A stretch of DNA of 64,000 nt from a bacterium (GCA_027485645.1 JAIXQR010000002.1:248001-312000); one strand, 5' to 3'; shown: positions 5,517 through 9,207, counted from the first letter of the stretch. The notes: generated from the sequence alone by a model not told the origin. Numbers and translations are program-made.

Positions 5517-5545
5517 TTGCCTTCCTTCCGCTTCCGGGTTAGAAT
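5517..5545 (+). promoter_or_regulatory. Promoter of the hydrolase-caspase operon
   Basis: TTGCCT (5517-5522) and TAGAAT (5540-5545) are separated by 17 bp, close to consensus spacing. The ATG at 5553 begins 7 bases after the -10 hexamer, so the transcript is probably leaderless. Confidence 0.65.
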
Positions 5546-5552
5546 GCGGAAG

Positions 5553-6746
5553 ATGCAAGTTGTTTTTGTCCATGGAGTTGCGAATCGTCGAGAAGGGGAC
5601 GGCACCGCGTTTGACCGCGACGTAGCGAACCGATCTCAGCTGCTTTCGAAAATCACCTTTGATGGCAAGGCCAAAGTTCGGAACCCATATTGGGGAGATC
5701 ATGGCGGACGGCTGCGTTACGATGGGGCATGCGTGCCGACCGCCGACGGCGCCGAAACCCTTGGCGAAGAAAAGACCCTTGAAGTCCTCGGGGACCCCTC
5801 CGCAAAGTCTGGGCTAAAGGGAAATCAACTCCTGACCATCGCCCGCAAACCCGCGACAGATGGTAGCGAACCGAGCGGAAAAGAACAACTGATTGATCTC
5901 ATCGTCAGCGGCATGGAGCAAGCCGACAATGACACGGAGGAATCCTACGGCGAGGCGGTCAAGATTCTGTCCGAGTACGCAAAGGAAGGCGACTGGACTT
6001 GGTTGGACTCGGTAAACACGGATGCTGAACTGATCGATGAATTGTTGCCTCAGGTCAACGCTTTCCAGCAACAAAGAGAAACCGAAAAGGTCAAAGAGAG
6101 CCTGGGCGGGTTTCCATTTCTCGATAAAATTTCCGATGGATTCAAGAAAGCCGTCGGCAGCGTTGTCGACCGGCTGTCGGACAAGTTCATGCTGAAGACC
6201 AAGAGCACTATGACCCTTGGTGCGGCGAAGTTCCTTGGCGATGCTTTCGTCTATCTCAATTCGCGCGGTGCCGCCAATGCGCCGAACGAGATCACCAAAG
6301 TCGCCTTGGCCGACATCACGGCAGCTTGGAATGAAGCTCAAAAGAACGGCGAAAAATTGGTGCTCGTCGGTCACAGTTTTGGCGGAACGGTCATCTGGGA
6401 CATCCTAACCCACCACCGCGACCTTCTGCCAGCGGGCTTCTTTGCGGATGCTGTGGTCACCGGAGGAACGCAAGTCGGCCTCTTCATGGAGCTCGACGTC
6501 TACGGACAAAAGCTGAGCGTCAAGCCACCAGCAAAGACCTCTAAGCCCGACAATATTGGCGTTTGGCTCAACTCCTACGACTTCGCTGACCCGCTCGGAT
6601 TTAGGTTGGAACCGATGCTAGAAGGTGCGCATGACTTCCAGTTCAACACCGGTGGTTCGCTGATCAACGCGCATAACCTGTACTTCGGCTTGCCAAGCTA
6701 CTACACCCGCCTGAAGGTCCGGCTACAAGAGTTTAAGGTCATTTGA
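5553..6746 (+). CDS. Serine alpha/beta hydrolase, first gene of a caspase operon
   Basis: A 397-residue predicted serine hydrolase with no signal peptide. It opens with beta strand QVVFVHG, the usual oxyanion-hole HG. The nucleophile elbow is GHSFGG with Ser275; Asp346 (or Asp343) in YDFADP and His374 in NAHNLY complete a triad arranged as in lipase/PGAP1-like hydrolases. Between strand one and the nucleophile lies an unusually long insert of about 200 mostly helical, charged residues. ATG 5553 is chosen because it sits 7 bases after TAGAAT; ATG 5544 would overlap that hexamer. Its stop overlaps the caspase start (TGATG), so the two are translationally coupled. Lipase, esterase or peptidase activity is unresolved. 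Confidence 0.85.
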   Translation: MQVVFVHGVANRREGDGTAFDRDVANRSQLLSKITFDGKAKVRNPYWGDHGGRLRYDGACVPTADGAETLGEEKTLEVLGDPSAKSGLKGNQLLTIARKPATDGSEPSGKEQLIDLIVSGMEQADNDTEESYGEAVKILSEYAKEGDWTWLDSVNTDAELIDELLPQVNAFQQQRETEKVKESLGGFPFLDKISDGFKKAVGSVVDRLSDKFMLKTKSTMTLGAAKFLGDAFVYLNSRGAANAPNEITKVALADITAAWNEAQKNGEKLVLVGHSFGGTVIWDILTHHRDLLPAGFFADAVVTGGTQVGLFMELDVYGQKLSVKPPAKTSKPDNIGVWLNSYDFADPLGFRLEPMLEGAHDFQFNTGGSLINAHNLYFGLPSYYTRLKVRLQEFKVI

Positions 6747-7846
6747 TGCTGGTGTTCGACGGAAATCTTGGCGCTTCGGCGGCGGTCCATGTCCTCTGCA
6801 TCGGGGTGGGGGACTACTTCTTCATGCCGAAGCCCAAGGAAACAATGCCCGCGGCATTGAAAGGGAAGTACTACAAAGAAGTTCCGATCATGAACCGGTT
6901 GACGTCGCCGCAGCCGTCGGCGCGGGCGGTGGCGGACTGGTTCATTGCCAACCAAGATCGACTTGAAGTCCCGCTAGGAACAGTCCAACTCCTCATCGGG
7001 AACGATCCAACCGGGAAAATCGCCAGCGGAGCGACCCTCGCCGAAGTCAAAGCCGCCGCTCGAGCTTGGTCGGATCTCTGCAACCAGAACGCCGACAACG
7101 TGGCGATTTTCTACTTCTGTGGCCATGGCGTCTCCGACCCAAACACTAGCGAGAGCCTCTTGTTGCTTCAAGACTTCGGCGACGCTGCGGAGGAGTTTTG
7201 GCGCAACGCGGTGAACTTCGAGCAATTCAAGCGGTCGATGGGTTCGAACGAAGCCATGACCCAGGTGTATTTGGTTGACGCCTGTCGAAACGTCCCCAAG
7301 TCTTACATGGACATTCCACGCCAAGGTCTGAGCACCCTGCTTACGGCAAGACCGTTGCTGATCAGCGGCAAGAACGTGCCGGTGATTCGTGCGGCGACCC
7401 TCAACCAAACGGCGGAAGGGACGGTGAATTCCCAAACCCGATTCTGTGAAGTCCTGCTGGACTGCTTGAGCCACTACGCAGCTACCGAAGTTGGAAATCG
7501 GTGGCAGGTTACGGTCGACTCCCTTGGTTCGGCGGTGAAAGCCGTTGGCAATCCGCACCGAAGACAAAAGCTGCCGGCATTATTCGAGGTAGGTGGGGAA
7601 ACGGTCTGGGAGCAATCGTTGGTGAACGTGCAGGAGCCGAAAGCATTTGCAAAAGTGTTCTTCGAAGCCACTTCCCCCGGTCCAAAAGTGGGAATTGAGG
7701 CGAAAGGGCTGGGTCGGTTTGTTGGCGACGACGAGCCGGTGACGTTTTCGGCCCCGGTCGGGCCGCTGGACGTTCAGCGACCCGGCAGCCCGGACTGGAA
7801 AACCTGCCACGCCAAACCGCCCGTGTTGGTTCTGGAGGACTTCTAA
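6746..7846 (+). CDS. Caspase-like cysteine protease (peptidase C14, metacaspase-like)
   Basis: A 366-residue cytoplasmic protein with a caspase-fold p20 domain. The His-Cys dyad is clear: His127 in FYFCGHGVSD and Cys180 in YLVDACRN. The N-terminal strand VHVLCIGVGDY and the helix with PSARAVADWF match the start of bacterial metacaspase domains. The C-terminal 100 residues have no recognised domain. Start and stop codons overlap those of both neighbours (TGATG and TAATG), so the three products are probably made together and may form one complex. Caspase-like proteases in bacteria often act in regulated cell death or defence; that role here is inference. Confidence 0.88.
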   Translation: MLVFDGNLGASAAVHVLCIGVGDYFFMPKPKETMPAALKGKYYKEVPIMNRLTSPQPSARAVADWFIANQDRLEVPLGTVQLLIGNDPTGKIASGATLAEVKAAARAWSDLCNQNADNVAIFYFCGHGVSDPNTSESLLLLQDFGDAAEEFWRNAVNFEQFKRSMGSNEAMTQVYLVDACRNVPKSYMDIPRQGLSTLLTARPLLISGKNVPVIRAATLNQTAEGTVNSQTRFCEVLLDCLSHYAATEVGNRWQVTVDSLGSAVKAVGNPHRRQKLPALFEVGGETVWEQSLVNVQEPKAFAKVFFEATSPGPKVGIEAKGLGRFVGDDEPVTFSAPVGPLDVQRPGSPDWKTCHAKPPVLVLEDF

Positions 7847-9207
7847 TGGCCCAACTCAATATTCGACTAGACCTGGGCGGAGGCGAGCAGCCGGTAGTGC
7901 CGGTGACGATTACCCACATGGACCGAACGGTTCAGCGCACCCCCATCAGTGCGGCTGTGCCAGCTTCGGGATACTTGGATGTCGACGACCTTCGGCCCGG
8001 TACCTACACCGTTCAAGCGCTTCTGCCCAATGGCAGTAGCTTGCGAAGGGAAGTGGAAGTCGGCGACGGCTATGCCCAAGTGGTCTTGGACAATCCGTAC
8101 CGTTCGCCACGAGAGACTTTGGCGGCGGCCGTTGCGACCAGACCGGTGCTCAGCGAAGCAGCGACGATCACCTTTGAAAGCATTCGGCCACGACGCGAGC
8201 TTTTCCTCGAGCTTTGGCGGAAGGAACAGGACGGCTGGCGGACGGCTCCGCTTTCGTCTGGCGTTGACTGGATGTCCCAGGATCCAAGTAACTCACTGAC
8301 CGCGCGGATTGAGATTCCCCCAGATGGCGTGCAGCGAGTTCTCAAAATCGGAGGCCCGAAGGTGCCGGTGAGGTTCGTCATGGTCCCGCCGTATGTGCCG
8401 AGCCAAGTGGTCGTATTCCCTCGACCCGCCGGTCTGGAGTCGCCGAAGCAGCAACAGCAATCCGACGGTTCTCCGCTGGAGAGCACGCGCGATCCGATTT
8501 GCGTGAGCGTGATCACGATGAATCCGGCGGCGGAAGGGCTCCTTTCGTACGCCCTGCAAGGTCAACACGGCGCAGTGCGCGCCATTCAAGACACGGTCGC
8601 CCGTGAACTGATGAACCGGAAGTTTCAAGACCCTGTCGGCGCAACGGCCGGCGCTTACGCGATGCTTCAATCAGGCGCGATTTCGGACGTCCTGGACTGG
8701 CTCGCGAACCTAACCGACGAGTTTGAAGCTCTGTCGGATGGCTTGCTGATCATCTCCGCCCTCGCCATTGGTAGCCGGATTCCGGAGGCGAAACTTCGCC
8801 AACTCCCCGCCATGCGCGGTCTTCGATTTAAGTCCGAGAGCGACGAGCAAGTTCGCCGCGAGGTCATTGCCATGACGTGCTTAGGCATGGCCTACGAACG
8901 CGGACTGCCGCTATACACCGAAGGCTTGCGGCTCCATCTCGGCATTCTCGACATGCTCGATTTTGGTGCTCCCGAAGGAAAGCGACGCCACGAATGGGCT
9001 TACGAGAAACTGCAAAACATCAAGGCCCTTAACCGAAATTTGAAGTACCGGCAGTGGCCCTCTCGGATGCGTTTCACCCTAGAGGCGAGCGAACAGACCG
9101 ACTGGTTTGCCCGAGTGACGACCGTTTACAGCGATCGTCCGGATCGAATCTCGAAGCGCCGCACCTTCTGGCGAGAGCCCGGCGAGTTCACTCATTCGGA
9201 ACGGTAG
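7846..9207 (+). CDS. Unrecognised third protein of the hydrolase-caspase operon
   Basis: A 453-residue protein I do not recognise. The first 90 residues look like a small beta-sandwich resembling carboxypeptidase-regulatory or Cna-B-type domains (DVDDLRPGTYTVQALL). A second beta-rich part runs to about residue 200, followed by a helical C-terminal half with repeat-like Ala/Leu helices. No catalytic motif, signal peptide or membrane helix is seen. Its ATG overlaps the caspase stop (TAATG), so it is obligately co-translated. It could be an adaptor, sensor or caspase substrate; function not known. Confidence 0.75.
   Translation: MAQLNIRLDLGGGEQPVVPVTITHMDRTVQRTPISAAVPASGYLDVDDLRPGTYTVQALLPNGSSLRREVEVGDGYAQVVLDNPYRSPRETLAAAVATRPVLSEAATITFESIRPRRELFLELWRKEQDGWRTAPLSSGVDWMSQDPSNSLTARIEIPPDGVQRVLKIGGPKVPVRFVMVPPYVPSQVVVFPRPAGLESPKQQQQSDGSPLESTRDPICVSVITMNPAAEGLLSYALQGQHGAVRAIQDTVARELMNRKFQDPVGATAGAYAMLQSGAISDVLDWLANLTDEFEALSDGLLIISALAIGSRIPEAKLRQLPAMRGLRFKSESDEQVRREVIAMTCLGMAYERGLPLYTEGLRLHLGILDMLDFGAPEGKRRHEWAYEKLQNIKALNRNLKYRQWPSRMRFTLEASEQTDWFARVTTVYSDRPDRISKRRTFWREPGEFTHSER

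Follow-up and report, generated by a model that had tools for sequence, protein, structure and literature searches.

A gene trio encoding an alpha/beta-hydrolase, a caspase-like protease and a CanB-like partner as a candidate Canu-like module

The window analyzed here, a stretch of 64,000 nucleotides from an Armatimonadota genome, contains on its plus strand three consecutive genes that encode a hydrolase (P0001, 397 aa; 5553..6746, with its ATG at 5553 and a TGA stop at 6744-6746), a caspase-like protease (P0002, 366 aa; 6746..7846, with its ATG at 6746 and a TAA stop at 7844-7846) and a third protein (P0003, 453 aa; 7846..9207, with its ATG at 7846 and its stop at 9205-9207). The coordinates, the gene order and the TGATG and TAATG overlaps given in a preliminary description of this DNA are all correct, and a second in-frame ATG for the hydrolase is present at 5544. 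The same description placed the genes behind one promoter, a claim that fared less well, since the only candidate is a single weak sigma-70-like match (5517-5545) where 1.0 is expected by chance. Base composition across the trio shows nothing unusual, and the trio is flanked in the window by housekeeping genes, with no defence island; the two genes on its 3′ side encode a DUF1592/1588 cytochrome and a DUF1552 protein. An empty-site comparison in other members of the genus found that the genes flanking the trio are not adjacent there. In addition, a PHROGs search returned nothing meaningful, and a phmmer search against solved structures gave no credible relative for any of the three proteins.

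The hydrolase, which is the proposed caged effector, has a catalytic Ser275, Asp346 and His374 that are unchanged in 16 relatives (alignment A4), and the Ser275 codon (6375..6377, plus strand) lies in a GHSFGG nucleophile elbow. Its matches to Pfam alpha/beta-hydrolase models fall below cut-off, and assignment to a known housekeeping lipase was rejected because no Pfam model scored above cut-off. The insert within this protein, previously put at 200 residues, is reduced to ~120 residues (about 75-200) when judged against relatives that lack it. These relatives are two orphan hydrolases (L029 and L032), so called natural insert-less forms, which retain the conserved core. Candidate caspase sites are found near both ends of the insert: ETLG at residues 68-71, near its start (5754..5765, plus strand), which is supported by the presence of the motif in A4 and by its enrichment in inserts, and ESLG at residues 182-185, near its end (6096..6107, plus strand), where the alignment is gappy and Gly185 shows conservation of at least 90%. 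Cuts after the Gly of both sites would excise residues 72-185 (5766..6107, plus strand), a segment with predicted, motif-based boundaries that is mostly absent from L029 and L032. An AlphaFold model of P0001 made with one relative had a pLDDT of 36 and was left out as unusable. No relatives of the hydrolase were found in viral contigs or in phage records.

The caspase-like protein matches Peptidase_C14 with E=4.6e-6, above the Pfam cut-off, and the His127 and Cys180 residues noted earlier are both intact and unchanged in 16 relatives (codons 7124..7126 and 7283..7285, plus strand). A second caspase-like protein, with a signal-like N-terminus, is encoded on contig C5 of the window genome (L001:829-2193); it has YFSGVGS where the His motif is expected and is therefore possibly inactive.

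The third protein, which had been described as an unassigned beta-sandwich and helical protein, can now be partly assigned, and both of these regions are present in an AlphaFold model, the helical one at low confidence only. The model is usable for the N-terminal domain alone, a beta-sandwich at residues 1-82 (7846..8091, plus strand; pLDDT about 70-85) with Foldseek matches to beta-sandwich domains and a resemblance to prealbumin-type or carboxypeptidase-regulatory-like domains. It is followed in the model by a second beta region, and a predicted helical region at residues 227-398 (8524..9039, plus strand; low confidence) contains the block that is best conserved across the family. The middle (B) gene of operons that encode a caspase, a B protein and an MBL-fold protein (caspase-B-MBL operons) is a homologue of P0003, and caspase-B fusions exist in L043, L049 and L063. 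All of the confident third-gene relatives examined adjoin or are fused to a caspase, with a remnant (L067) as the sole exception, and a search of genome contigs with the third gene returned the sister genome alone. P0003 is interpreted here as a putative CanB-like partner of the caspase, and it may possibly act as a sensor. Among its relatives, a likely third-gene homologue in the Rhizobium ruizarguesonis trio (L041:10312-12144) ends in a pYEATS domain, and a 1788-aa Bradyrhizobium plasmid protein (L039:9246-14609) consists of a B-family region followed by two trypsin-like domains and PLD domains. Genes for a caspase and an M12 metallopeptidase precede that of the latter, and this operon perhaps represents a proteolytic cascade.

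Alphaproteobacterial plasmids and two further Armatimonadota genomes share this gene order. Of 291 Armatimonadota genomes, exactly 3 contain the caspase together with the third gene, and in each the hydrolase is present and the order unchanged; besides the genome of the window, they belong to a sister species (84-95% identity) and to a member of another genus (about 40% identity). A tblastn analysis of plasmids revealed trios of the same order in Sinorhizobium (including pNGR234a), Agrobacterium and Rhizobium, more divergent ones in Komagataeibacter, Bradyrhizobium and Embleya (the last on an actinobacterial plasmid), and a hydrolase next to a caspase-B fusion in Deinococcus and Agrobacterium leguminum. 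Every full-length plasmid hydrolase (12 of 12) is followed directly by a caspase ORF, which in L048 is a remnant, and a gene or fusion of the B family accompanies 11 of these 12, with the weakest match in L041 (E=0.0016). In the Komagataeibacter trio the hydrolase is split in two frames (L047:6001-7100). The neighbours of the trio on plasmids are of defence type, including TrlF, restriction endonuclease, S8 peptidase/ATPase and TIR genes, and some of the plasmids that carry it are conjugative.

Because the trio arrangement recurs in distant lineages, it is more than chance. The proposal in the preliminary description that the three products act together is, as judged from gene order conserved across phyla, fusions of caspase and third gene, and the placement of the third gene beside or within caspase genes, strongly supported. 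That description also considered that a hydrolase found mostly without the caspase would speak against joint action, and here the picture is divided: the full-length plasmid hydrolases are linked to a caspase, whereas hydrolase relatives without one exist in some Armatimonadota, two of them also without the insert. A profile search for the trio-type caspase in the genomes of these orphan hydrolases, the insert-less ones included, found none.

Profile searches also placed the caspase and B families in operons with an MBL-fold effector (L050-L053, L062-L065), and these caspase-B-MBL operons match the published Canu system. Canu (CanABC) is a caspase-nuclease anti-phage system of Klebsiella aerogenes in which CanA co-purifies with CanB, and the CanAB complex activates the pro-nuclease CanC (PMC12799240). 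Features by which Canu is recognized include a MALT1-like, C-terminal Ig-like domain on the caspase and phage protection that depends on both catalytic sites. CanC contains two gating insertions with a conserved Gly, and mutating either predicted proteolysis site ablates defence, while the Hachiman and AVAST systems provide precedents for activation by cleavage of gating loops (PMC12799240). In a caspase tree, most hydrolase-type caspases separate from the MBL-type caspases, and two fused caspases that occur with hydrolases fall on the MBL side, on long branches. It follows that the effector was exchanged at least once, the number of exchanges being uncertain. One gene run on a plasmid of Rhizobium etli (L068:2841-6092) encodes both an MBL protein and a MoxR ATPase.

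The motif tested at the candidate sites was E-x-[LFMY]-G (ExPhiG), with the MBL set scored for G, S or A at the last position. The inserts of 11 hydrolases linked to a caspase contain 15 occurrences, and the cores of these proteins contain 0, with 1.3 expected in shuffled inserts; the motif can be paired near the insert ends, as ETFG and ETFG in L048 or ESLG and EQLG in L042. The same motif is found at both gating sites of caspase-linked MBL proteins (ESLG/ESLG in L050, ETFG/EAFG in L062 and EEFG/ESYG in L064) and is absent from the gating sites of trypsin-linked Avs1a controls, which have NPIS and YEM instead (NPIS in L066); no enrichment of the motif was seen in caspase or B proteins. Since the motif was first noticed in the hydrolase alignment, its enrichment there is post hoc, and the MBL set constitutes the better and more independent test. 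The suggestion in the preliminary description that the caspase activates the hydrolase gains specific support at the sequence level from the ExPhiG motifs of the hydrolase insert, which recur at the gating sites of caspase-linked MBL proteins, and further support from the Canu precedent.

Comparison of the two sites within the same protein provides a further view of this motif. An unbiased best-match search found that the two insert regions agree better within than between hydrolases (p 0.002-0.01), and the same within-protein comparison with hand-picked sites gave p=4e-5, an optimistic figure. A same-protein match of sites was also seen for the whole MBL set, and none was detected within the caspase-linked MBL proteins alone (p=0.31), all of which share one consensus. 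The insert of P0001 contains two further ExPhiG matches, at residues 77-80 and 130-133, and therefore the exact cuts are uncertain. Four caspase-linked hydrolases depart from the motif (L041, L043, L045 and L049), and L045 and L049 each repeat a variant of their own at both insert ends (SFGL twice and GMGAA twice, respectively), a pattern that fits a co-evolved protease, although with so few sequences chance could also account for it. Among the orphans, L031 keeps both motifs in a genome without the caspase, and L030 keeps the insert with the motif absent; the comparison of motif presence between linked and unlinked hydrolases is suggestive only (Fisher p=0.057). Plasmid MBL proteins at two other loci (L069:5001-6029 and L070:4989-6044) have D-R-L-G or D-L-L-G at both gating sites, and the one in L069 is preceded by a protein of 861 aa that matches no Pfam model and is perhaps its protease partner.

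The interpretation we favor, and hold to be somewhat better than an even bet, is that the trio is a Canu-like, proteolytically armed module, in which the hydrolase is uncaged by caspase cuts, probably upon phage infection, and which ends in cell death or growth arrest. In such a module, the CanA-like P0002 and the CanB-like P0003 would form a complex that senses a trigger, probably phage infection, and the triggered caspase would cut P0001 after the Gly of E-x-[L/F/M/Y]-G near both ends of the insert. Cuts at ETLG 68-71 and ESLG 182-185 would remove about 114 residues that are predicted to hold the serine hydrolase inactive, and the freed enzyme may then damage the cell, so that infection would be stopped by death or arrest of growth. 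Membrane lipids are the likeliest target of this damage, a view taken from the general behaviour of the enzyme class. A broader proposal, to which we give about equal weight for and against, is that Canu-like immunity has a caspase-hydrolase branch, defined by this trio, and that a single code, E-x-[LFMY]-G, marks the paired gating sites of two effectors of unrelated folds, the MBL nuclease and the alpha/beta-hydrolase. If this is true, bacterial caspases may be viewed as interchangeable triggers, with different killers uncaged through the excision of inserted plugs.

Other explanations assign different roles to the same proteins. The hydrolase may not be a caspase substrate at all, but a constitutive enzyme or itself a trigger, with the caspase and third protein acting on other host or phage proteins; the existence of hydrolase relatives without any caspase and the lack of ExPhiG in some linked hydrolases are in keeping with this idea, which we nevertheless consider unlikely given that all 12 full-length plasmid hydrolases are caspase-linked and that the motif is shared by MBL effectors related to KaeCanC, which its caspase complex activates. 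It is also conceivable, with a probability that we place lower still, that the trio is a caspase-regulated signalling or housekeeping module, for example one for membrane-lipid remodelling or a stress response, with neither an anti-phage nor a suicide function. The genes that flank the trio in the window, which are housekeeping genes, and its ordinary base composition speak for this explanation, but a patchy distribution (3 of 291 Armatimonadota genomes), carriage on conjugative plasmids, the TrlF, restriction endonuclease, S8 peptidase/ATPase and TIR neighbours, and the Canu precedent all argue against it, as does the presence of the hydrolase family in the VMAP ternary system, a proposed conflict system.

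It would be quite surprising, in our estimate, if the insert were cut only to inactivate or mature the product, with the caspase serving as an off-switch or constitutive trimmer. Activation and inactivation are indistinguishable from sequence, but gating-loop cleavage is activating in the Canu, Hachiman and AVAST precedents, and the natural insert-less hydrolases keep the conserved core. If the activating model above is correct, the principle of pro-enzyme gating extends beyond nucleases.

Several known systems share parts of this arrangement. The trio caspase is distantly similar to the caspases associated with EACC1 (NF047832), but membership in that group was rejected, as the caspase_w_EACC1 NCBIfam model gave 34.5 bits against a cut-off of 140, and no EACC1 gene was recognized adjoining the trio caspase. 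In Hachiman, AVAST and Lamassu, a partner protease likewise removes gating loops of a pro-enzyme effector (PMC12799240), but the protease is trypsin-like, the effector is an MBL protein, and the cut-site sequence is another one (NPIS in L066, not ExPhiG).

The VMAP (vWA-MoxR) ternary systems, which are proposed conflict systems, also share features with the trio: those that bear a caspase were noted to be invariably accompanied by an adjacent alpha/beta-hydrolase (Kaur et al. 2020, PMC7159879). In Kitasatospora (L105), a hydrolase that matches the trio family along its entire length lies beside a VMAP-C protein, MoxR and FxsC, and the VMAP-C frame also matches the caspase profile near its N-terminus. 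The trio resembles these systems in that its hydrolase adjoins a caspase and belongs to the same family as that of L105, but its caspase is encoded as a protein of its own and is paired with a CanB-like one. VMAP-C was found in neither P0002 nor P0003, and MoxR and vWA were absent from the flanking genes scanned, so VMAP membership was rejected. On a plasmid of Hymenobacter (L102:3933-8880), two CHAT-domain genes enclose a gene for a hydrolase of this family. The inserts of L105 and L102, two cases only, have no obvious ExPhiG pair, as would be expected if a different protease is used.

The closest counterpart is Canu, as compared through the caspase-B-MBL operons. Like Canu, the trio has a gene for a caspase-family protease with intact His and Cys; the gene that follows belongs to the B family of the caspase-B-MBL operons and encodes a putative CanB counterpart. 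As in Canu, its effector has an insertion with conserved Gly residues at the candidate cut sites (ETLG 68-71 and ESLG 182-185), and its relatives occur among defence genes on plasmids. It differs in lacking the MBL-fold CanC, whose place is occupied by an alpha/beta-hydrolase that is unrelated to it and is encoded upstream, and in that hydrolase-type caspases mostly group apart from the MBL type. The trio is therefore classed as a Canu-like variant and not as Canu itself, since it lacks the nuclease from which the system takes its name. Previously, Canu was known with a nuclease effector only, and the VMAP caspase-hydrolase pairing (2020) had been described without a mechanism. The trio links the two, and it predicts both the exact residues at which a caspase would cut the hydrolase and a cut-site rule common to two unrelated types of effector.
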